The position numbers were made by a program, and so were the translations under genes. From a virus: DNA of 21,450 bases. Shown piece by piece: positions 1,397 through 20,422 of the stretch. The notes beneath the pieces are model-generated. The model had not been told where the DNA came from. It saw only the letters and a list, made by a program, of their open reading frames with translations, and ran no database searches. The DNA lies in IMG/VR virus record IMGVR_UViG_3300010354_000814, positions 1-21,450 of that record; one strand, 5' to 3'. Numbering within the stretch: the stretch's first letter is position 1; every line of letters begins with the position of its first letter.

Positions 1397-1570
1397 ATGT
1401 CAGTTGCGTATCACAAGGCACAGAAGCAGCGTTATAGAGTCACTCTAGAGCTTGAGGTTTTTGAGGACTTCGACCCGCATCAGCTTGACTGGGAGAAGTT
1501 ATTCAAGTTGGAACCAGCTGAGCGTGTCGAAGCATATGTCGAAGACCTCAGCTGTCCTGATAGGTGGTGA
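1397..1570 (+). CDS. Small hypothetical protein, 57 aa
   Basis: ATG 1397 is preceded by a good Shine-Dalgarno GGAG (1385-1388, 8 bases upstream) and follows a sigma-70 promoter; TGA is at 1568-1570. The protein begins MSVAYHKAQKQRYRVTLELEVF, so a basic N-terminus leads into a beta strand. A very acidic, Trp-containing C-terminal half follows (EDFDPHQLDWEKLF, then EPAERVEAYVEDL). First gene of the GC-richer early-type cluster. No domain recognised. The promoter and ribosome-binding site make it convincing as a gene although it is short. Confidence 0.7.
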   Translation: MSVAYHKAQKQRYRVTLELEVFEDFDPHQLDWEKLFKLEPAERVEAYVEDLSCPDRW

Positions 1571-1583
1571 TTTAGTGCTGTAG

Positions 1584-1635
1584 AGTTTTGATAGCATAAC
1601 CCCCCCTAAATACCCCCAGTTATGCTATCAAAACT
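1584..1635 (+). repeat. Perfect 17-bp hairpin with late promoter in its loop, abutting a start codon
   Basis: AGTTTTGATAGCATAAC (1584-1600) is the exact reverse complement of 1619-1635, around an 18-base loop (1601-1618) consisting of C runs flanking CTAAATA. The ATG of the next gene begins at 1636, the base after the right arm. RNA starting upstream would fold this stem against the start codon. RNA starting at the loop promoter lacks the left arm and cannot. This geometry matches the T4 gene e and soc arrangement. There is no T run after it, so it does not look like a terminator. Confidence 0.85.
1606..1612 (+). promoter_or_regulatory. Putative late promoter CTAAATA
   Basis: CTAAATA lies in the middle of the hairpin loop, flanked by six and five C residues. 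By the T4 rule (start about six bases past the motif) the RNA would begin near 1618-1619, at the first base of the right arm, giving a leader of about 17 bases to the ATG at 1636. C-type variants of the late box are, to my knowledge, accepted for cyanophages. Confidence 0.6.
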
Positions 1636-1848
1636 ATGAGACCTCTAAAGTATAAGAATTTGGGTTCTGGAGTGATGATTCGAGTGCCCGAAAGTATCAC
1701 CACTATTCTACCACAACTGCAAGACGTTATGCAACAGTTAGAGGAGAAAGGTGAGGATAGTCGTGAGGTGATATTGCAGGTTCTCAGTGACATTCAAGAC
1801 CGCCTGAGTGAGTATTATTGGGCCCCTGAGATTGTCCCTATAGTGTAA
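1636..1848 (+). CDS. Small hypothetical protein, 70 aa, under hairpin/late promoter control
   Basis: 70 codons from ATG 1636 to TAA 1846-1848. The start is fixed by the end of the hairpin at 1635; there is no Shine-Dalgarno sequence. A short basic N-terminus (MRPLKYKNLGSG) is followed by VMIRVPESITTILPQLQDVM. This Arg-Val-Pro-Glu entry into a helix resembles the start of small cyanobacterial and plasmid proteins with a V-R-V-P motif. A long amphipathic helical region then runs to about residue 60, with a hydrophobic tail (APEIVPIV). The helix could support oligomerisation. A weak resemblance to ribbon-helix-helix-type small regulators is possible but not supported by a clear motif. Confidence 0.75.
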   Translation: MRPLKYKNLGSGVMIRVPESITTILPQLQDVMQQLEEKGEDSREVILQVLSDIQDRLSEYYWAPEIVPIV

Positions 1849-8068: not shown

Positions 8069-11000
8069 ATGACAGATAAAAGAATTCAGTTCAGTAACAT
8101 TGTAAGAAATCAACTTCCAGCGTATGTTAGGGAAGAATATCCACTAGTAAGTGAATTCTTATCCCAATACTACGTTTCTCAGGAAGTTCAAGGTTCTCCT
8201 GTAGATCTAATACAAAATATTGATCGATATGTAAAAATTGACAATATTACAAATTTAACTGATACTGCTGTTCTTTTAGCGGATATTACATCAATAGATG
8301 ATGTAATTCAAGTCAACTTACTAGAAACTGAAGATGGCATATCACAATTTCCAGATTCTTATGGTTTAATAAAGATTGATGATGAAATAATTACGTATAC
8401 AGGTAGAACTGAAAACTCTTTTACTGGGTGTATTAGGGGATTTAGTGGAATCACATCATATAGAAGTAGCAATGATCCCAACAGTTTAGTTTTTAGCGAG
8501 TCAGAGTCGCAAGAACACAAAGCAGGGGCAACAATTGTAAACCTGAGTTCTCTTTTCTTAAAGGAATTTTTACTAAAAGCAAAGTATCAGTTAATTCCCG
8601 GTATTGAAAATAGATCTCTTTCAGATAAGATCGATCAAGCGACTTTTATTAAGCAAGCAAGAGACTTTTATTCGTCCAAGGGTACTGATGAGTCCTTTGA
8701 AATTTTATTCAGAGCTCTTTATGGAGAAGATGTACAGATAATTAGGCCAAAAGAGTATCTTTTTAGACCATCTGATGCTCATTATAGGGTTACTAAAGAT
8801 CTAGTAGTAGAAAGTATTTCTGGAGACCCAACAAAACTTGAAAAGTCTACTCTAATTCAAGATGCGTATGGAGATATTATTGCAGCAAGAGCTCCAGTTT
8901 CATACGTAGAAAAAATTACCGCTAGAAATGGAAAGGAATTCTACAAATTAAAAATTGATTCTGCGTATGATAAAAACTCAGAATATGGTGGATCGTTTCT
9001 GGGCAAATTTTCTGTACATGCAAAGACAAGGGTAATAGGTCAAGTATCGCAAGGAGCAACAACTATAGATGTTGATTCTACTGTTGGTTTTTCCACTTCA
9101 GGAACTCTTTATGTAAAATATAATGATGATAGTGAAGGAACAATTTCATATTCATCAAAAAATATTAATCAATTTTTAGGATGCTCGAATGTAATTGGAA
9201 TAATCCCAGATGGATCTGACATTTCAATAAACACTTTTGCTTATGGAAATTCCTTTGGAAATTCATCAGAAGTTGTAAAGGTAAAAATTACTTCAGTATT
9301 AAATGATCTAGAGATTCCAGAAGAAAATTATTTTTACTCGAAGGGTGATAGTTCAAAAATAAAAACTTTGGGAATTGGGGCAACTGATTTTATTTCCAAC
9401 AATTGGATTTTTAATGTCGCAACATCATATGATGTAGTATCATTAAGTCTGATTGATACCTCTGATATGACATATTCGGCAGTGCTGAATAATGATCATA
9501 TTTTTAGAATTGGTGATAGTTTGAGAATCGTTGATAATGTTGGTAGTGAGAAAAATTCTACAGTTGTTGATGTAACTTCCTCTAGAAACATTATTATTAG
9601 GGGTCAGGGAAATCTAAATTTAGCAAGTACTTATAAAGTAACTAAGAACTTAGCAAAGGTAAATTCCTCAAAATATCCTTTTGCCAACAATTTGAACGCA
9701 AACGTTCAAAACATTTATAAAGATGATGAAAAAACTTTAATAGCTTCTTCATCAATCCCATATTATGGAAATCAGGGACTAGATGCTTATGCCAATGAAG
9801 TAGTTTTTTCTGGAACATTTTCCAGTGATACTTTTAAAATAACATCTTTAACAGATCATGGATTTTATACCGGAGATCCAGTCTATTACACTCCAGAGAA
9901 AGGAGTATTGACTTCATACGATAGTGATGGAAATGTTATCACTACAGATACCACACTGAGTTCCATATTTGAAGAGGGACTTTATTTTATAAAGAGAGTA
10001 GATTCAAATAACGTAAAATTTGCTAGAAGTAGATCTGATATTTTCAATTCTAGATTTATTTCGGTAGAAAGCACTATCACAGCAACTAACAATAAACTAA
10101 TACCCTTTAGATTTGCAAATAAAACATTAGAATCCCAAAAACTCCTAAGGCAAGTTTCTTCACCAACAAGTGATGGGAATACTTATCCAACTTTGCCAGG
10201 TTCTACAGGTATTCTCGTAAACGGCACAGAAATCCTAAATTACAAATCTACTGAAGTAGTACACTATGGTCAACTTGATGATATTGAAGTTACAAGTGGT
10301 GGTGCTGATTACGATGTAATTAATCCACCAACATTGAACATTATAGACAGAAACCCAGAAGGAGTTATTGTTGGCTCTGGTGCCACCGGGTATGTTTCTG
10401 TTTCTGGTTCTTTAAGGCAAATTCAAATTTTAGATCCAGGATTTGATTATACGGAGACTCCCAAAATTAAAATAACTGGCGGAAATGGATCTGGGGCAAA
10501 TGCCACAGTAAACATGAAACTTATAACTCATCAGGTTTCATTTAATTCGGATCTAGAATCCGGTTCCGTTACCCTAGGATCCTCACAATCAATAATTGGA
10601 TTTTCTACTTACCACAAATTTAGAAATGCCGAACAGGTAGTTTATAGAACAAATTCACAAAGAGGAATTGGCGGAATTTCGACAGACTCTTCATATTTTG
10701 TTTCGGTAAAAACGCCATACACTGTCAAATTACATAATACTCTAAATGATGCTGTTAGTGGGATCAATACGGTCACTTTAACTTCCCATGGAAGTGGAAA
10801 ACACACTTTAGAATCATACAATAAAAAGTCTGTAGTTTCTTCAATAAATGTAGTAAGTCCAGGAAGTGGTTATCAGAATAAAAAAAGAACGGTATCCTCA
10901 TCGGGAATATCTACAGCATCAAATAACATATCAATACACAATCATAGTTTTAATTCGGGCGAAATAGTAAAATATTCAACAACAGGAACTGTTATTGTTG

Positions 11001-14000
11001 GGTTAAGTAGTAATACAAATTACTACGTCACGAAAATAGATGAAAATAGTTTTACACTGTCAAGCATTGGGCCAGACAATGATCCAGAATTTTACTACAA
11101 AACTAAGCAATATGTAGAGTTAACTTCATCGGGAAGTGGAACGCATATTTTCAATTATCCAGATATATCAGTTGAGTTGGTTGGAAATGTTGGAATTTCT
11201 TCAATAAGTGGAGAAACCTTCAAATGTAAAGTTCAACCAATTTTTAAAGGTTCAATTACTTCTGTTCATTTGTCCAATAAAGGATCTGGATATGGATCCG
11301 GTATCATTAATTTTATTAGAAAACCAATTGCAACATTATCAAACGGTCTAAATGCACAATTAACTCCTATAATCAATGGTGGGCAGATAACAGAGGTTCT
11401 TGTTAATAATGTTGGATATAATTATACATCCGTTCCATCACTAGTAGTTGAAGGAAATGGAGTTGGTGCTGTTTTGGTTCCTGTTATATCGAACGGACAG
11501 TTGATTTCAGTAAAAGTATTGGAAGGTGGAATTGGATATGATAAAGAATCAACATCGATAGAAGTAAGATCTGATGGATCTGGGGTAGAATTTGACGTAA
11601 AAGTGCAATCTTGGAGAGTTAATCTACTACAGAAGAACTTAAAAAATATTACCCCAGACGATGGTTTTGTTACAAATGGATTATCTTTGAATAGTGGATT
11701 GCAGTATGCAAATCTCTATGCTCCAAGAAAACTTAGAGAAATATTATATGCAACTGATCAATCTGGAAAAGTTTTGTATGGAAAGAGAGATTTAAAGAGA
11801 GTTAATAATTCTGAAGTTGCTTCAACTGACCATTCCCCAATTATTGGTTGGGCTTATGATGGAAATCCAATTTATGGTCCATATGGTTATATCACTAAGA
11901 AGGGTGGAATAATATCGCAAATGAAGTCTGGTTATAAACTAGAACTGAAACAAAATAGACCATCTTTAACAGATTTTCCTGAAGGATTTTTTGTAGAAGA
12001 TTACACTCATTTCGAAGTAAACGACGAAACAGTACTAGATAAAAATAATGGAAGATTCTGTGTTACCCCAGAGTTTCCAAATGGAACATATGCCTATTTC
12101 GCAACCATCAACCCAGCGAATGTAGATTCCTCTGGTGCTTTCGTTGGATATAAGAGACCAGTATTCCCATATCTAATTGGAGAGAACTATCAGTCACTTC
12201 CAATAAGTTTCAATTTCAATATTTCTTCCAACCAAGACAACATAGATCTTAATAAAACAAATTGGGTCAGAAATACAAAACCATATAATTTGCTTTTGAA
12301 CAGGGAACAATATGCTTATATAAGCATACCAAATTTACTTGACCAAACTATTGACGTAAGATCGGTTACTCCAGGATCAATCAGTGATGTTGGAATATCT
12401 ACTGGTGGAAATAATTATAAGGTAAATGATCAATTAGTTTTTAATAACTTAGATGAAAATAATAACCAAAGAGGATTTGGTGCATCTGCGAAGGTATCAA
12501 GAATTGCAGGAAAGTCTGTAAATTCTGTTAGTGTAGCTACCAGCACACTTTATGAAGTTGAATTTTACCCATCAGGTAATAAAGGAGAATCTGTTGCGTT
12601 TGTCAAAAATCCACATAATTTAATAGACTATGATGTTGTAAGTATTTCTGGATTAAATACTACCTCTTCTTCAATGGAAGGATCTTATAATATTGATATA
12701 ACTAAAAATATTCTGACTTTAGTTGGTTTAGGAAGTACTACTGTAGGAATCAACAGTGTATCAGTAACAGGAATCGTTACTTATATTTCCGTGTCAGGAA
12801 ATCTTCTATATCCATATATTAGAGAAAATGACATTTTAACCATAGGTTCTGAAAAAGTCAGAGTATTAAATATAGATTCCAAGTCATCAAGAATTAGAAT
12901 TTTGAGGCAAGTTGATGGTACGGTTGGAACATCACATTCCGTTTCCACGATCATATACGAGAACCCAAGAAAGTTTGTAACTAACATTGGATTAAGTTCA
13001 AATTATTCTCCCAAAATTAATAAAGAGATATATTTCAATCCAATAGAATCTGTTGGATTGGGAACTTTATCTGGAGTTGGTATTGGAACTACAATTGCAA
13101 TTTCTAATCCAGGTGCCGGATTAACCAGCATTTTCATTCCAACAAAATCAATATACATTCCAAATCACAATCTTAATACTGGGGATCAATTAATTTATTC
13201 GACATATGGTGGAATCCCGATAACAGTATCTAATAATGGAATTTCAACCAATGTGACTATACCCGATCAGTCCCTTCTATATGCAGTAAAAATTAGTAAT
13301 GATCTAATAGGAATTTCAACTGTTAAAGTTGGTCTTGGATCAACAGGTACTTTTGTAGGTATTGCAAGTACAACTAATTCACTGAGTACTTTATTCTTTA
13401 CTGGAATTGGTACCGGAACATACCATAGTTTCAAAACAAATTACCCAGTATTATCAGGTCAAGTAACTAGAAACTTAGTTACAGTTTCTACTGCGGAAAC
13501 TCACGGAATGCGAAATAATGATGTTGTTTATATTGACGTGAATCCATCAATATCTACAACATTCACAATTAGATATAATGATTATAATAGAAGATTATTG
13601 TTAAATCCTAAGAACTTCACAAGTTCAGACGTAAATGTTTTATTGGATCAGATATCTATTCAGAATCATGGTTTTGTATCAGGTCAAAAAGTAATTCATA
13701 CTTCATCATCACCTGCTGCTGGGTTGACCAATAATCAAATTTATTATGTAATTAAAGTCGATAATAATAATATCAAATTATCAAATACTTATTATGACTC
13801 ACTATCACTAACGCCAGTTGTCGTTGCAATTAGTGGTGTTGGTGATGGAACTTTATCTTTAGTCAATCCCCCAATAGTTGCATATAGAAATTCTACAATA
13901 ATATTTGATTTATCAGATTCTTCCCTTTCTTATGTCAGCCAATCTACCCCATATTCTGCTTTTAAATTCAGCGTATATGCTGATTCTACCTTAACACAAG

Positions 14001-17000
14001 AATTCGAATCAACTAAAGAAACTGCACTATTTGATATTGAAAGAGTTGGCAATATCGGCATAAGTACAGATGCGAAGGTTATCTTAAGTATAAAAGAAAG
14101 CACTCCTAACAATCTCTATTACAACTTAGTTCCAGTTTTTGAATCTAATGTTCCAACTGAGAAAAAGGAAATTATTGTTGATGGTTTTGTAGCATCAAAT
14201 AATACGATACAAGTAAAAAATAGTCTTTATAATGGAAAACAAGTAATAACATCATCTTCAGTATACTCATTCACTTACGGACTGCCTTTTGCTCCAGAAA
14301 GATCTTCATATTCAAGTCCATCTATTATATCCTACGAAACTGATTCGTTATTCGCAACTGGTCCTATTTCAAAAATCCAAATTACAAACAAAGGATCCAG
14401 TTATTATTCTTTACCGGGAATCACTACAGTTTCTTCTGCTTCCGGATCAAATGCCATACTTAATGCGGAAACTAAGTCTATTGGTAAAATAAAGAAAACA
14501 AAAATTAACGATATTGGTTTTGACTTCCCATCAGATTTGACATTAAGACCCAGTATTGCTCTCCCACAAACCATAAAGATGAATTTACTTTCATCTTTCG
14601 ATTATATTGGAATAACATCTTATGGTAGAGGTTATAGTTCCATTCCAAAACTTCTTGTTTTTGATGGAAAAACAAATGAAGTAATTAATGATTTGGATTT
14701 AAAATATAGTTATGGTGATACCAGAGTAACAATACTCAAAAATACTTTTGGTATTAATAATGCTACTCCTAGAATTTTACCAATACAGAATTCGAATGGA
14801 GTAAAAATTTCAAACATAGGATTCAATACATCAACTCAACAAGTAACTGTAAATCTAGCAGTAGGATTTAGCACTGCTGACTCTTTCCCATTCAGGGTTA
14901 ATGATAAAGTTTTAATTGAAAATATTAGTGTCAATGATCCTTCTTCGAAAGGATATAATTCTGAAAATTATGATTATAGATTATTCACAATAACATCTAT
15001 TAATCCAAATCTTGGTGGACTTGGATCAGTAACTTACAGTCTTCAGGGCCTTCTTAATAATTCAGAATCTCCTGGCGTTTTTGATCCATTGAATTCTTCT
15101 GGAAGAATTATTCCCGAAAAATATTTCCCAGTATTCAGTCCAGTATTAAAAACGAATAATTATATCATAGGTGAGGCAGTAGAGACATCCGAATCATCTG
15201 GATATGTTCAAAGTTGGGACCCGACAACAAATTACCTAAAGGTTGTTTCTGTTGACACTTTTGGAGAAAATATTATTATTAAAGGATTGACTTCAAAAAC
15301 TCAAGGCGTTTCATCTTCGGTTACTTCTTTTGACTTCTTTACAAAACTAAGCGAATCATCAAAAGTTGAAAATGGATGGAGAGAAAATGCAGGATTCTTA
15401 AATGAAAATATTCAAAGAATTCAAGATAATTTCTATTATCAGAATTTCTCTTATTCTCTAAAATCTAGAGTTGATTATGATAAGTGGGATGATGCAGTAA
15501 GTACATTAAACCATACTGTTGGGTATAAAAAATTCTCAGATTATCAATTAGAATCTAAATTACCAGATTCCTCATCAAATTCTTTGAATGTAGGCCTCTC
15601 AACCAATTTAACATCAATCGAAGTTGTAAATGATATAGTTTCCTATGTTGATTTGAATTGTGTTTATGACTTTGATTTGGTAAGGGAGAATTCGATCCAA
15701 ATCAATTCTCAGGTTTATTCTGATGAGATAATATTCCAAAATAGAGTTTTAACTGATTATTTCGAATCAATCGGAAATAGAGTATTATCTATTGATAATA
15801 TTTCAGATACTTTTAATAGCAACCCAAGACCAACTAGATACGCTGAAATTTTCAGATTCCCATTATCATCAGCAAGAGCCCAAAAGTATATAACACTCAC
15901 TAGCGACAAGAGATTTGTATCACAAAGACAACTTCTTGCGGTAACAGTTCTTCACGACAATTCGCAAGGTTATATTAACCAGTATGCAAGAGTTGAAACG
16001 GCATATGATTTAGGTTCTTTTGATTTTGGAATTGAAGGAACTGATGGAATTTTATTTTTCTATCCAAATAATTATTCGGTAAATGACTATAATGTGACAA
16101 TTTTATCGTACAATATTAATGAAGTTATAACTGGATCTGATGATAGTACTTTTAATGGAATTATTGGGATAACTAACAGTCTGACTGTTGTTCCCACAGG
16201 AACAGCAACAACTATTATTGGTATTGCTAAAACTTATACTTCATTAAAACTACTAGTTCAAATCACTGGTTCTGGTGGAAAATATGAATTTGATGAATTG
16301 AATGTAGTAAGTGACGGCGCTAATGTCGAGTTTGTGGAGTATGGAAAACTAACAACCAATCCAGAATCATATTCGTCAAATGGACTTGGGACATATTATC
16401 CATATATTTCTGGTCCAAACTTAAAAGTTGATTTTATTCCAAATGTCGGAGTCTCTGCAACAATTAGAACGTATAGTGTAGCTTTCACTGACAATTCATT
16501 TACCGGACCTGGTATTGGAACTTATATAATGAAGCATTCCATGTTGGAAGCAAGAAAAACATCCATTGCATCAACAAGCACTCCAACTGCAAATGTTATT
16601 GGGGATTTTATTGATGATTATGATGGAGCATATGTTATTGTTCAAATAAATGATACAACAAATAATAGATATCAACTATCCGAATTTATTATCATTGACG
16701 ACTATAATACAGCAAATCCATCTTCAGAAATATATTATACTGAATTTGCAAATATAGAGACATCGGTTGGCCTAGGAACCATCGGAGCTCAAAGAACAGG
16801 TAATGTAACTCAGATTGTATTTACGCCATTGCCAAACATATCTGTGGAAGCAAAAATTTTCATGAATGCTTTGAGATATCAAGATGACACGAGAGATGTT
16901 GTTGTTTTTAATAATGCAACAATTGAAACAGGGTATTCGGAATATACCGGTACAAATTCTGATATCAAGAGAGCATTCAATTTAACCCACAAAGGAAGTA

Positions 17001-20000
17001 GCATATTTGAAACATACTTTGATGGTAGCAATACTGATATTATTGATCTGCTAGAAAATACTATAAGAATTCCAAATCATTTCTTTGTCAGTGGTGAGAA
17101 TATTACATATTCTCACGCCGGTGCAGGAAGCACTCAGGCAATTGGAATAGCAGCAACTAGTTTTGCTGGAATTGGAGTAACTGATAAAGTTCCTTCGGAC
17201 ATTTATGCAGTTAAAGTTGATGAGAATAGAATAAAAATCGCAAGTAGTGCAGAAAATGCATTAAAATCCACACCAAAAGTTCTAGATTTAACAAGTGTAG
17301 GTATTGGAACTAATCACAGATTTATTTCAAAAAATCAAAATGCAAAGGCACTTATTGCAATTGATAATGCAATTCAATCTCCAGTAGTTGCTACAGCAGT
17401 AACAACTACTTTATCAAATATCGTTTATACTACTGATAATTTAATCTATTTTAGCGGTATCACTTCTTTCTTTGGTGGAGATTTGATTAAAATTCAGGAT
17501 GAAATTATGAAAATTGAAGGTGTTGGTGTAGGAAGCACCAACGCAATTAGAGTTCGTAGACCTTGGTTAGGAACTGTAATTTCTGGGCATTCTACTGGAA
17601 ATCTTGTAACCAAAGTTTCTGGAAATTATAATATTGTTGAAAATGTACTCAATTTTGCTGAGGCTCCATATGGAAATATATCAATTTCATCAATAACTAA
17701 TTCGCCAGGAGAAAGAGATTGGTTAGGAATTACCACTGGTTCAAGCTTCCAAGGAAGAATTTTCTTAAGATCTGGTTTAGTAAATTCCTCAAATGAAACT
17801 TATCATAAAAATTATGTTTTTGATGATGTTTCATCTGGATTTGATGGATTTGAGAACAATTTTACACTAAAATCACAAGGTTCTAGTGTAACAGGAATCT
17901 CAACAGAAAATGCAATTGTTCTAATTAATGGTGTTTTCCAAAATCCAGGATTATCAAATAATTATAGCATACAGGAATCTGCAGGAATCAGTTCAGTTGT
18001 ATTTACTGGGGCTGGAACATCCACTTTATATGATATAAACACTTCAGATTTACCATCGGGTGGAATTATTGTTTCGGTTGGGTCAACCGAAGGTTTTGGT
18101 TATCAACCTTTAGTTACTGCAGGTGGAACTTCCATAGTCTCTTCTGGTGGAACTATACAATCAATTTCAATTGGAAATACTGGATCTGGTTATAGAGCTA
18201 AGTCAACTTATGAAATATTAGTTGATACTTCTCATATCATTGGAGTTGGATCTACGATTATTTACTTAGAGAATAAAAATAGTGTATTCAGTCTACTAAA
18301 TCTATTAAATACTGGATTCAATTGCACTATTGGAGTTGGTACTTTTATTGGAATTGGAAGTGTAATAACTTCTATTGGTTCCACTTTTATTAGAATAGGA
18401 TCTGGATCAACCAGTGCATACCCAATTCCATCCGGAACTCAAGCGATAATTAAAATTTCAAATCCACAAATTGGATTTGCAAACGTTAGTGTTGCAAACA
18501 GTTCAATTGGTGTATCGACAATAACACATGTTGGTTATTCTACTGTTATTTCCGGAAGCATATCAACCTCAGTCGTAATAACAAATCCAGGATTTGGATA
18601 TACATCTCTAATTCCACCAGTAGTAATAATTGACGATCCACTATCATACACAAATATTCCATTAATCTATAGTTCTTCATCATCTGGTGTTGGAACTCAA
18701 GCAACAATTGATATTGTCGTTGGACAAGGATCAAGCGTGATTGATTTTGAAATTTCAAATACTGGATATTCTTATGATATTGGAGATGTTCTTACAATTC
18801 CAACTGGAGGATTAGTTGGAATACCAACATCATCTGGATTTAATGAATTCCAAATTACAGTTCAAAATACATTTATCGATAAGTTTGCCGGATGGTCAAT
18901 AGGAGAACTTGAAGTTCTTGATAGCATTGAAGATTTGTTTGATGGAGAGACTTTAGTGTTCCCATTAACAATATCAGATAATCTAGTTTCAATTAGAGCA
19001 TCTAAAGGATCGTTTATCAATGTTCAAGATGCACTATTGGTCTTTGTAAATAATATCTTACAAGTTCCAGGTAAAGGATATGTATTTAGTGGGGGAAGTT
19101 TAATAACATTTACTGAACCCCCTAAAGTAGGGGATACTTGCTCCATTTTATTCTATAAAGGTAGTGGATCTGTAGATGTTATCGAAAGAGAAATTCTAGA
19201 AACAGTAAAAATTGGGGATGAGTTAACCATTGGATATGATTCTTCTCTAGGACAACAACCCACACTTCAGGAAGAAACTAGATTTGCAACATTAATCAAA
19301 TCAACAGATTTAGTTGAAACAAATCCATATTTTGGCCCAGGAAATACTAATGACGAAAATTTACTTCGTCCAGTTACTTGGTGTAGACAGACTGAGGATA
19401 GAATTATTGATAATAAAGGTGTATCAAAAGATAGAGAACTTTATGAACCAATAATTAATCCATTCGCTTATTTAATTCAACCTGTTGGTATTGGGTCAAC
19501 GATTCTTTATGTTGATAATATTAGACCATTCTTTAACCAATTAAACGAAAGTAGAATTTCTCTAGATTTCCAAAATAATATAACATTCATTTCACAACAA
19601 CAAAAAGTTTCTGCAGCAGCTACTGCAATTGTAGGTATTGCAAACACTATTAGTTCTATAATAGTAAATAATGGTGGTAGTGGATATACATCAGCACCAC
19701 TAGTTACTATACAGGATCCAATTGGTATTGGAACAACAGGAAAAGCAACTGCAATATCTTTAATAACATCTGGTATTGTTACTTCGATTGTTATAACTGG
19801 TGCGGGAATTGGTTATACAACACCACCTTTGGTTCTATTAGAACCACCATCTTTAGAATCGGAAAGTTCTTCGGTCAGTTCTTATGAGGGTGACTCTGGA
19901 ATAATCGTAGGAATATCAACTTCCTCCATAGGAATTGGAACAACATGTATTGTCTTTGACTTTATTATTCCAAAAGATTCTTATCTAAGAGATTCTTCGA

Positions 20001-20422
20001 TAACTGGAATATCAACTTTAAGTGGAATTCAAACGGGATATTATTTTGCAATAAGCAATTCTAATATTGGCACTGGAATTATTTCCTTAGATAATACTGG
20101 GGGAATAGTTGGTGTTGGAACTACTTTCTTAGATGGAATATATAAGGCAATTCAAGTTTCCGTGGCTCAGACTAGTGCTCCCGGAATAGGTATAACTCAT
20201 GTAGTGAGGGTGGCAGCAAGAGTTAATGATTACAATGGATTATCTGGAATTGGATATGATAATTTCTTCGGAACTTACAGTTGGGGAAAAATAAACTTAC
20301 CATTTAGACTTGAAGGAAATTCATACTCATACCCAGCATACACAACAAATGGATACGTTGGCATTTCCACTGGCACAATAATCAAGAGGACAACTCCTCT
20401 AAAATACTCCGATTACACATAA
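8069..20422 (+). CDS. Giant repeat-rich baseplate/tail protein in the gene 7 position, 4117 aa
   Basis: 4117 codons, ATG 8069 to TAA 20420-20422, about four times T4 gp7 (1032 aa), which occupies this place in T4. The N-terminal 300 residues look globular and wedge-like (LPAYVREEYPLVSEFLSQYY; then ARDFYSSKGTDESFEILFRA, LYGEDVQIIRPKEYLFR). Later come an E-x-I short domain (near residues 107, 1595 and 3145), six N-H-x-F-x-S-G-x-x-V-x-Y modules (597, 849, 959, 1700, 1867, 3004), about 14 G-x-G-Y-T-x-x-P beta repeats, a YHYH-like domain (about 1250-1372), a long non-repeat region (about 2430-2970) and two tail-fibre-like segments with N-G-V-F-Q-N-P-G (3287) and N-N-I-L-Q-V-P-G (3661). The layout suggests a long adhesive wedge arm. 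The gene shows no frameshift and uses A/T-ending codons. The gp7 relation is inferred from position and the N-terminus. Confidence 0.85.
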   Translation: MTDKRIQFSNIVRNQLPAYVREEYPLVSEFLSQYYVSQEVQGSPVDLIQNIDRYVKIDNITNLTDTAVLLADITSIDDVIQVNLLETEDGISQFPDSYGLIKIDDEIITYTGRTENSFTGCIRGFSGITSYRSSNDPNSLVFSESESQEHKAGATIVNLSSLFLKEFLLKAKYQLIPGIENRSLSDKIDQATFIKQARDFYSSKGTDESFEILFRALYGEDVQIIRPKEYLFRPSDAHYRVTKDLVVESISGDPTKLEKSTLIQDAYGDIIAARAPVSYVEKITARNGKEFYKLKIDSAYDKNSEYGGSFLGKFSVHAKTRVIGQVSQGATTIDVDSTVGFSTSGTLYVKYNDDSEGTISYSSKNINQFLGCSNVIGIIPDGSDISINTFAYGNSFGNSSEVVKVKITSVLNDLEIPEENYFYSKGDSSKIKTLGIGATDFISNNWIFNVATSYDVVSLSLIDTSDMTYSAVLNNDHIFRIGDSLRIVDNVGSEKNSTVVDVTSSRNIIIRGQGNLNLASTYKVTKNLAKVNSSKYPFANNLNANVQNIYKDDEKTLIASSSIPYYGNQGLDAYANEVVFSGTFSSDTFKITSLTDHGFYTGDPVYYTPEKGVLTSYDSDGNVITTDTTLSSIFEEGLYFIKRVDSNNVKFARSRSDIFNSRFISVESTITATNNKLIPFRFANKTLESQKLLRQVSSPTSDGNTYPTLPGSTGILVNGTEILNYKSTEVVHYGQLDDIEVTSGGADYDVINPPTLNIIDRNPEGVIVGSGATGYVSVSGSLRQIQILDPGFDYTETPKIKITGGNGSGANATVNMKLITHQVSFNSDLESGSVTLGSSQSIIGFSTYHKFRNAEQVVYRTNSQRGIGGISTDSSYFVSVKTPYTVKLHNTLNDAVSGINTVTLTSHGSGKHTLESYNKKSVVSSINVVSPGSGYQNKKRTVSSSGISTASNNISIHNHSFNSGEIVKYSTTGTVIVGLSSNTNYYVTKIDENSFTLSSIGPDNDPEFYYKTKQYVELTSSGSGTHIFNYPDISVELVGNVGISSISGETFKCKVQPIFKGSITSVHLSNKGSGYGSGIINFIRKPIATLSNGLNAQLTPIINGGQITEVLVNNVGYNYTSVPSLVVEGNGVGAVLVPVISNGQLISVKVLEGGIGYDKESTSIEVRSDGSGVEFDVKVQSWRVNLLQKNLKNITPDDGFVTNGLSLNSGLQYANLYAPRKLREILYATDQSGKVLYGKRDLKRVNNSEVASTDHSPIIGWAYDGNPIYGPYGYITKKGGIISQMKSGYKLELKQNRPSLTDFPEGFFVEDYTHFEVNDETVLDKNNGRFCVTPEFPNGTYAYFATINPANVDSSGAFVGYKRPVFPYLIGENYQSLPISFNFNISSNQDNIDLNKTNWVRNTKPYNLLLNREQYAYISIPNLLDQTIDVRSVTPGSISDVGISTGGNNYKVNDQLVFNNLDENNNQRGFGASAKVSRIAGKSVNSVSVATSTLYEVEFYPSGNKGESVAFVKNPHNLIDYDVVSISGLNTTSSSMEGSYNIDITKNILTLVGLGSTTVGINSVSVTGIVTYISVSGNLLYPYIRENDILTIGSEKVRVLNIDSKSSRIRILRQVDGTVGTSHSVSTIIYENPRKFVTNIGLSSNYSPKINKEIYFNPIESVGLGTLSGVGIGTTIAISNPGAGLTSIFIPTKSIYIPNHNLNTGDQLIYSTYGGIPITVSNNGISTNVTIPDQSLLYAVKISNDLIGISTVKVGLGSTGTFVGIASTTNSLSTLFFTGIGTGTYHSFKTNYPVLSGQVTRNLVTVSTAETHGMRNNDVVYIDVNPSISTTFTIRYNDYNRRLLLNPKNFTSSDVNVLLDQISIQNHGFVSGQKVIHTSSSPAAGLTNNQIYYVIKVDNNNIKLSNTYYDSLSLTPVVVAISGVGDGTLSLVNPPIVAYRNSTIIFDLSDSSLSYVSQSTPYSAFKFSVYADSTLTQEFESTKETALFDIERVGNIGISTDAKVILSIKESTPNNLYYNLVPVFESNVPTEKKEIIVDGFVASNNTIQVKNSLYNGKQVITSSSVYSFTYGLPFAPERSSYSSPSIISYETDSLFATGPISKIQITNKGSSYYSLPGITTVSSASGSNAILNAETKSIGKIKKTKINDIGFDFPSDLTLRPSIALPQTIKMNLLSSFDYIGITSYGRGYSSIPKLLVFDGKTNEVINDLDLKYSYGDTRVTILKNTFGINNATPRILPIQNSNGVKISNIGFNTSTQQVTVNLAVGFSTADSFPFRVNDKVLIENISVNDPSSKGYNSENYDYRLFTITSINPNLGGLGSVTYSLQGLLNNSESPGVFDPLNSSGRIIPEKYFPVFSPVLKTNNYIIGEAVETSESSGYVQSWDPTTNYLKVVSVDTFGENIIIKGLTSKTQGVSSSVTSFDFFTKLSESSKVENGWRENAGFLNENIQRIQDNFYYQNFSYSLKSRVDYDKWDDAVSTLNHTVGYKKFSDYQLESKLPDSSSNSLNVGLSTNLTSIEVVNDIVSYVDLNCVYDFDLVRENSIQINSQVYSDEIIFQNRVLTDYFESIGNRVLSIDNISDTFNSNPRPTRYAEIFRFPLSSARAQKYITLTSDKRFVSQRQLLAVTVLHDNSQGYINQYARVETAYDLGSFDFGIEGTDGILFFYPNNYSVNDYNVTILSYNINEVITGSDDSTFNGIIGITNSLTVVPTGTATTIIGIAKTYTSLKLLVQITGSGGKYEFDELNVVSDGANVEFVEYGKLTTNPESYSSNGLGTYYPYISGPNLKVDFIPNVGVSATIRTYSVAFTDNSFTGPGIGTYIMKHSMLEARKTSIASTSTPTANVIGDFIDDYDGAYVIVQINDTTNNRYQLSEFIIIDDYNTANPSSEIYYTEFANIETSVGLGTIGAQRTGNVTQIVFTPLPNISVEAKIFMNALRYQDDTRDVVVFNNATIETGYSEYTGTNSDIKRAFNLTHKGSSIFETYFDGSNTDIIDLLENTIRIPNHFFVSGENITYSHAGAGSTQAIGIAATSFAGIGVTDKVPSDIYAVKVDENRIKIASSAENALKSTPKVLDLTSVGIGTNHRFISKNQNAKALIAIDNAIQSPVVATAVTTTLSNIVYTTDNLIYFSGITSFFGGDLIKIQDEIMKIEGVGVGSTNAIRVRRPWLGTVISGHSTGNLVTKVSGNYNIVENVLNFAEAPYGNISISSITNSPGERDWLGITTGSSFQGRIFLRSGLVNSSNETYHKNYVFDDVSSGFDGFENNFTLKSQGSSVTGISTENAIVLINGVFQNPGLSNNYSIQESAGISSVVFTGAGTSTLYDINTSDLPSGGIIVSVGSTEGFGYQPLVTAGGTSIVSSGGTIQSISIGNTGSGYRAKSTYEILVDTSHIIGVGSTIIYLENKNSVFSLLNLLNTGFNCTIGVGTFIGIGSVITSIGSTFIRIGSGSTSAYPIPSGTQAIIKISNPQIGFANVSVANSSIGVSTITHVGYSTVISGSISTSVVITNPGFGYTSLIPPVVIIDDPLSYTNIPLIYSSSSSGVGTQATIDIVVGQGSSVIDFEISNTGYSYDIGDVLTIPTGGLVGIPTSSGFNEFQITVQNTFIDKFAGWSIGELEVLDSIEDLFDGETLVFPLTISDNLVSIRASKGSFINVQDALLVFVNNILQVPGKGYVFSGGSLITFTEPPKVGDTCSILFYKGSGSVDVIEREILETVKIGDELTIGYDSSLGQQPTLQEETRFATLIKSTDLVETNPYFGPGNTNDENLLRPVTWCRQTEDRIIDNKGVSKDRELYEPIINPFAYLIQPVGIGSTILYVDNIRPFFNQLNESRISLDFQNNITFISQQQKVSAAATAIVGIANTISSIIVNNGGSGYTSAPLVTIQDPIGIGTTGKATAISLITSGIVTSIVITGAGIGYTTPPLVLLEPPSLESESSSVSSYEGDSGIIVGISTSSIGIGTTCIVFDFIIPKDSYLRDSSITGISTLSGIQTGYYFAISNSNIGTGIISLDNTGGIVGVGTTFLDGIYKAIQVSVAQTSAPGIGITHVVRVAARVNDYNGLSGIGYDNFFGTYSWGKINLPFRLEGNSYSYPAYTTNGYVGISTGTIIKRTTPLKYSDYT
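10298..11560 (+). repeat. Protein-level beta repeats (GxGY type), N-terminal block
   Basis: Six copies of a degenerate unit with the core I-x-x-[IV]-x-[IV]-x-x-x-G-x-G/D-Y, often followed by T-x-x-P-x-[IV], at residues 744, 791, 932, 1072, 1116 and 1153 of the giant protein. The DNA has diverged, so the repeat is visible only in translation. Single copies follow at 1446, 2109 and 2186. Confidence 0.75.
11831..12184 (+). other. YHYH-like domain inside the giant protein
   Basis: Residues about 1255-1372 read HSPIIGWAYDGNPIYGPYGY, later LDKNNGRFCVTPEFPNGTYA, YFATINP and finally PYLIGENYQ. This is the order of the YHYH domain: G-x-A-x-D-G-x-P-I-Y-G, then G-R-x-x-x-T-P-E, the Y-H-Y-H-A-T strand, then P-Y-x-I-G. 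Here the name-giving YHYH is YAYF (1341-1344), so both motif histidines are lost. Any metal-linked function of those residues would be gone while the scaffold remains. H1255 is still present just before the first segment. Confidence 0.75.
18182..19840 (+). repeat. Protein-level beta repeats (GxGY type), C-terminal block
   Basis: Five more copies of the same unit at residues 3372, 3508, 3566, 3869 and 3911. The last two are the cleanest, GGSGYTSAP and GAGIGYTTPP, spaced 42 residues apart with a G-K-A-T-A-I-S strand between them. The same unit occurs twice in gp8 (residues 220 and 263), so the repeat type is shared between adjacent genes. Confidence 0.75.

Follow-up and report, generated by a model that had tools for sequence, protein, structure and literature searches.

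A hairpin around a putative late promoter in T4-type cyanophages whose arms may also serve as paired autorepression operators

The window analysed here is an entire virus record of 21,450 bases, in which a perfect inverted repeat lies immediately before a gene for a 70-aa protein. We interpret this repeat as a probable T4-type late-translation hairpin whose stem doubles as twin autorepression operators, a model to which we assign a probability of about 0.55. Read-through RNA from upstream would hold both arms, fold and shut the start site, and RNA initiated at a promoter in the loop would start at the right arm, lack the left arm and be translatable. The 70-aa protein would in turn bind both dyad arms, which flank its own late promoter, and so limit transcription. 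Taken separately, the hairpin and late-promoter part of the model is quite probable, and the operator part, in which the arms are bound by the gene's own product, is reasonably likely.

The two arms occupy positions 1584–1600 and 1619–1635 on the plus strand, are 17 nt each with 100% complementarity, and enclose a loop of 18 nt at 1601–1618 (CCCCCCTAAATACCCCCA). Within the loop is CTAAATA (1606–1612, plus strand), a putative late promoter whose last base is 23 nt from the ATG of the 70-aa gene; this ATG, at 1636, is the first base past the right arm. The original prediction had described just this arrangement, a perfect 17-bp inverted repeat with CTAAATA in an 18-base loop and abutting an ATG, and all of its elements are present where it placed them. 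If the motif is followed by a 5-nt spacer, T4 late-promoter geometry puts the predicted late RNA 5′ end at 1617–1619 on the plus strand, such that the right arm would form the 5′ leader of that RNA. There is no Shine–Dalgarno sequence before the 70-aa ATG, and the stem closes the start region only. Two trivial explanations for the repeat were rejected. No other perfect inverted repeat in the window is as long, and 60 Markov surrogates with the same dinucleotide make-up as the window gave values of 9–13 bp, so a chance repeat is not a satisfactory account of 17 bp. Nor is it an intrinsic terminator, since the stem has no T-run behind it and a terminator scan found none at the hairpin.

In IMG/VR the 70-aa protein matches 47 loci, whilst no relatives of its domain were found in the cultured phage records or bacterial genomes searched. 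Relatives were also gathered by hairpin and HNH searches, and the collection was reduced to 38 stand-alone rows and nine HNH-fused rows, the latter having the 70-aa-type domain after an HNH domain. As the relatives come from metagenomes and the rows, where related, are not independent of one another, the p-values given below are indicative only. The design, consisting of two arms, a late-like motif in the loop and a start codon at the right arm or a few bases from it, was found in 47 rows, and nearly all intact relatives of the 70-aa gene are preceded by it. A late-promoter-like motif is present in all 34 distinct stand-alone loops, and its distance to the ATG is 22–24 nt across the stand-alone forms. 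A second family (MRPKNY...RVPY) has a like design with arms AGTTTTGTCCCAAAAC, and an HNH-fused form of its own. In one relative (L091, 1100–1195), and also in L069, the site and late motif are tandemly duplicated, so that there are two left arms to a single right arm. The right arm in the window also contains a five-codon frame, ATG CTA TCA AAA CTA TGA (1622–1639, plus strand), which exists as originally described, with its TGA overlapping the 1636 ATG. Equivalent short frames, of 4 or 5 codons and with the TGA on the start codon, are found in 32/34 distinct stand-alone leaders. Such a frame could allow translational coupling, but it may merely follow from the arm sequence.

If the stem matters as RNA, the arms should be conserved as a pair with compensatory changes in relatives, as the original prediction had anticipated, and this is what was found. 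Over 18 distinct stand-alone arm pairs, 98.7% of positions form standard pairs and four pairs have changed on both sides, giving a covariation score that exceeds all shuffles (0/500); slid control versions of the same arms are only 32–49% paired. The HNH-fused arms are 87.7% paired, and six of their pairs have changed in both arms. Template switching readily corrects inverted repeats, and it could be argued that this mutational homogenisation keeps the arms complementary with no selection for RNA pairing, linkage then joining the right arm, which adjoins the codons of the protein's N-terminus, to codons 11–14. We consider this very improbable, since the arms of stand-alone relatives hold at 87–88% identity whereas the loop and the 30-nt flank diverge to 56% and 45%, respectively, and since the spacing between motif and ATG in the stand-alone forms is fixed.

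The predicted folding is also in line with a translational switch. The computed median unpaired probability of the start region (−12 to +3) is 0.15 in read-through RNA versus 0.54 in the predicted late RNA, the latter being taken to start 5 nt past the motif and to lack the left arm. This folding contrast, the arm covariation and the T4 precedents would all fit a hairpin acting alone, in which the stem hides the start in read-through RNA, the loop promoter gives translatable late RNA, covariation keeps the pairing and the protein has no control role. Such a reading would also accommodate HNH-fused arms that have stayed paired despite losing the inner dyad half, as in L105, where TTTTGCTACTTTAATAC and GTATTAAAGTAACAAAA pair at 16/17 positions. 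It does not, however, predict the dyad symmetry within each arm, the match of the arm core to residues 11, 12 and 14 of the protein or the alleles with direct repeats in the NUMOD4-HNH family, all described below, and we judge it to be rather unlikely as a full account.

A stem does not seem to be a general feature of cyanophage late promoters, a possibility which we rejected. In a scan of ∼1.02 Mb from five cultured phages, stems scoring at least 9 around NTAAATA and followed by an ORF start were seen in eight cases, against 3–6 for four control motifs, so that enrichment is unclear. One cultured phage, S-RSM4 (L256, FM207411), has on its minus strand at ∼87390 a perfect stem of 12 bp that encloses CTAAATA in its loop and lies just ahead of a long ORF.

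The putative source of early read-through RNA is a sigma-70-like promoter at 1339–1367 on the plus strand, TTGACA-17-TATAGT, assigned by its match to 11/12 consensus bases. The terminator scan found no terminator-like site between this promoter and the hairpin. Between them is the 57-aa ORF (phrog_12516; 1397–1570, plus strand), which the cassette follows. Ahead of the 57-aa gene there is also a sequence match to a late-promoter-like motif, ATAAATA, at 1320–1326 on the plus strand; NATAAATA is a late promoter of S-PM2 (PMC2984593). Read-through RNA may thus arise late as well as early, which weakens a strict early/late split. The original proposal of a T4-type early block with a late-only product is partly supported, through the paired arms, the loop motif and the folding contrast, but may be too strict in its timing and overlooked the operator-like character of the arms.

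This character is apparent in the arms themselves. The left arm is internally dyad-symmetric (AGTTTTG-ATAG-CATAAC) and would be operator 1, and the right arm together with A1618 makes an imperfect 18-bp dyad, AGTTATGCTATCAAAACT, which would be operator 2. Each arm is near-palindromic, with the form AGTTTTG-NTAN-CAWAAC. The shuffling p-values are 0.0002–0.02 in family 1, and in family 2 two of three arms are below 0.001 and the third is not; the dyad frames, like the arm classes (TTAA or not) used below, were defined after viewing the sequences, and these values are again only indicative. The arm core also tracks the protein. In 36/36 stand-alone proteins a TTAA core goes with Met12/Ile14 and other cores go with Gly12/Met14, and the mutual information between arm-core class and residues 11, 12 and 14 is 1.00 bit, compared with 0.49 for the next column. 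When mapped on a tree built from the C-terminal part, core and residues change seven times, always together, although most branches of this tree are weakly supported and one independent pair falls on starred branches. Three loops are identical despite different arm cores, which implies that the arms were switched while the loop stayed. Since the right arm adjoins codons 11–14, the association may partly reflect linkage. It is not strict in the HNH-fused forms, where the looser match may stem from how far the arm lies from the domain. Because the arms are dyad sites that track residues 11, 12 and 14, pairing alone is an insufficient explanation for them.

Across five contigs of 76–284 kb that carry the cassette, exact arm sites were confined to the hairpin of the gene itself; there were none in two contigs with fused forms, and two lone matches in one cassette-free contig. 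A genome-wide regulon was rejected on the basis of this confinement. The same confinement would fit two autorepressor sites flanking the late promoter with the RNA hairpin a mere by-product of their inverted orientation, as would the dyad-symmetric arms, the residue–arm match, the site and promoter repeated directly in tandem in L069 and L091, and the direct-repeat sites in L276–L281. Yet in every stand-alone form the promoter is flanked by an inverted pair of arms extending to the ATG, and the HNH-fused forms keep their pairing after loss of the dyad. Operators with no role for the hairpin are thus distinctly unlikely.

A second group of HNH-type genes, which we take from their sequence to be the NUMOD4-HNH family, is unrelated to the 70-aa family. 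On the minus strand of L049, at ∼10931–10884, a NUMOD4/HNH-type gene has TATAAATA or CTAAATA between paired sites, with relatives in L262–L281; in those loci where the distance was measured, the motif lies 24 nt upstream of the ATG. The paired sites around TAAATA are inverted in L262–L275 and are direct repeats in L276–L281, where they cannot form a hairpin. The best support for direct repeats comes from L276 (15 points, shuffle p < 0.002), and those of L278–L281 (p ∼0.09) are no more than suggestive. This indicates that, in the NUMOD4-HNH family, the paired sites rather than the pairing itself can be what is conserved.

The 70-aa ORF runs from 1636 to 1848 on the plus strand. Residues 1 to ∼56 form the conserved domain (RPLKYKNLGSGVMIRVPE...), and the last ∼14 residues derive from flanking DNA. 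Alignment with empty alleles that lack the cassette (L045–L047) places the inserted unit of hairpin, promoter and gene at approximately 1569–1803 on the plus strand. The cassette is likewise absent from the same locus in Synechococcus phages Bellamy and S-SM2. The 57-aa gene is directly upstream of 49/54 cassettes checked, with another gene there in the other five. The stand-alone proteins have a median dN/dS of 0.24, indicating purifying selection. The 70-aa protein has no HNH catalytic domain, whereas its fused relatives carry one N-terminally (in L035, phrog_4234, E 6e-22), and these HNH-fused versions share both their 70-aa-type domain and their locus with the stand-alone gene. Judged by these sequence comparisons, the 70-aa protein is equivalent to the domain at the C-terminus of related HNH proteins minus the nuclease, its gene represents a version, lacking the nuclease, of an HNH cassette found at one locus, and the cassette belongs to T4-type cyanophages and is related to an HNH endonuclease element.

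Two structure models of the 70-aa protein had pLDDT values of 64 (first) and 77.5 (second). In the second, helices at residues 19–38 and 43–58 follow an extended stretch with no assigned strand, and a ribbon-helix-helix-like fold is only a candidate reading of this model. The domain had no Pfam match, Foldseek and VIA-align were uninformative, and hhalign against CopG gave nothing usable. Some neighbouring ORFs may also be mentioned. In L091, a small ORF behind the cassette gene (1362–1541; FKPKYHTPGVTVRIRVPEYYHDQI...) resembles the N-terminus of the domain and has no Pfam match. In the window, adjacent small ORFs at 2504–2638 and 2684–2824 are alike (MSKTVILSMLAQ... and MSKSVMLSMLAE...), apparently through tandem duplication, and a single ORF of 4117 aa spans 8069–20422 behind the baseplate wedge genes.

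We know of no paired operators for T4 e, soc or 49, and these genes, unlike the window cassette, lie outside any endonuclease family. The original prediction took e and soc as its model. They do represent the same kind of switch, the start sites of e, soc and 49 being sequestered in RNA structures and the late e RNA lacking the 5′ strand of the structure (PMC3014915), but the nearer precedents are the hairpin-controlled homing endonucleases I-TevI, SegB and MobE, for which a hairpin/late-promoter switch has been described (PMC2988022). In the case of T4 I-TevI, an intron endonuclease, the start region is concealed in early read-through RNA, late RNA is free of the inhibitory structure, and the protein autorepresses through an operator over its own late promoter (PMC2988022). 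The window gene differs in having no nuclease domain, in that its putative operators are both hairpin arms themselves, and in that no Shine–Dalgarno sequence is hidden. In the free-standing endonuclease genes MobE (Aeromonas phage Aeh1) and SegB (T4), similarly, a late promoter is present and the start region is covered by an RNA hairpin; arms matched to the recognition residues of the protein, as seen here, are not mentioned for them in the available text (PMC2988022). The psbA leader of S-PM2d is also a cyanophage 5′-UTR and contains a 36-bp inverted repeat besides early and late motifs; it is discussed for its light response, and the available part of that source mentions no start-site blocking or link to a self-encoded regulator (PMC5931967). 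We found no description of the hairpin/late-promoter arrangement in cyanophages among the open papers searched, subscription journals being mostly outside the scope of this search. Overall, the window case appears to work like its precedents, except that its product has no nuclease and its arms look like operators.

The switch has so far been known from a few T4-type genes, studied singly, and is seen here in dozens of uncultured cyanophage contigs. In these contigs it is accompanied by covariation, and its stem apparently doubles as a pair of sites for protein binding; the arm–residue match offers a directly testable switch in protein–DNA specificity. More speculatively, and on balance unlikely, the stand-alone gene might be an endonuclease-derived repressor, with its own hairpin arms as operators, that, by sitting on these arms, could shield the locus from HNH-fused versions, the arm core and recognition residues switching together as alleles compete. 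If the proposed double role of the stem is true, one 17-bp sequence would be constrained simultaneously as an RNA stem and as a DNA site.
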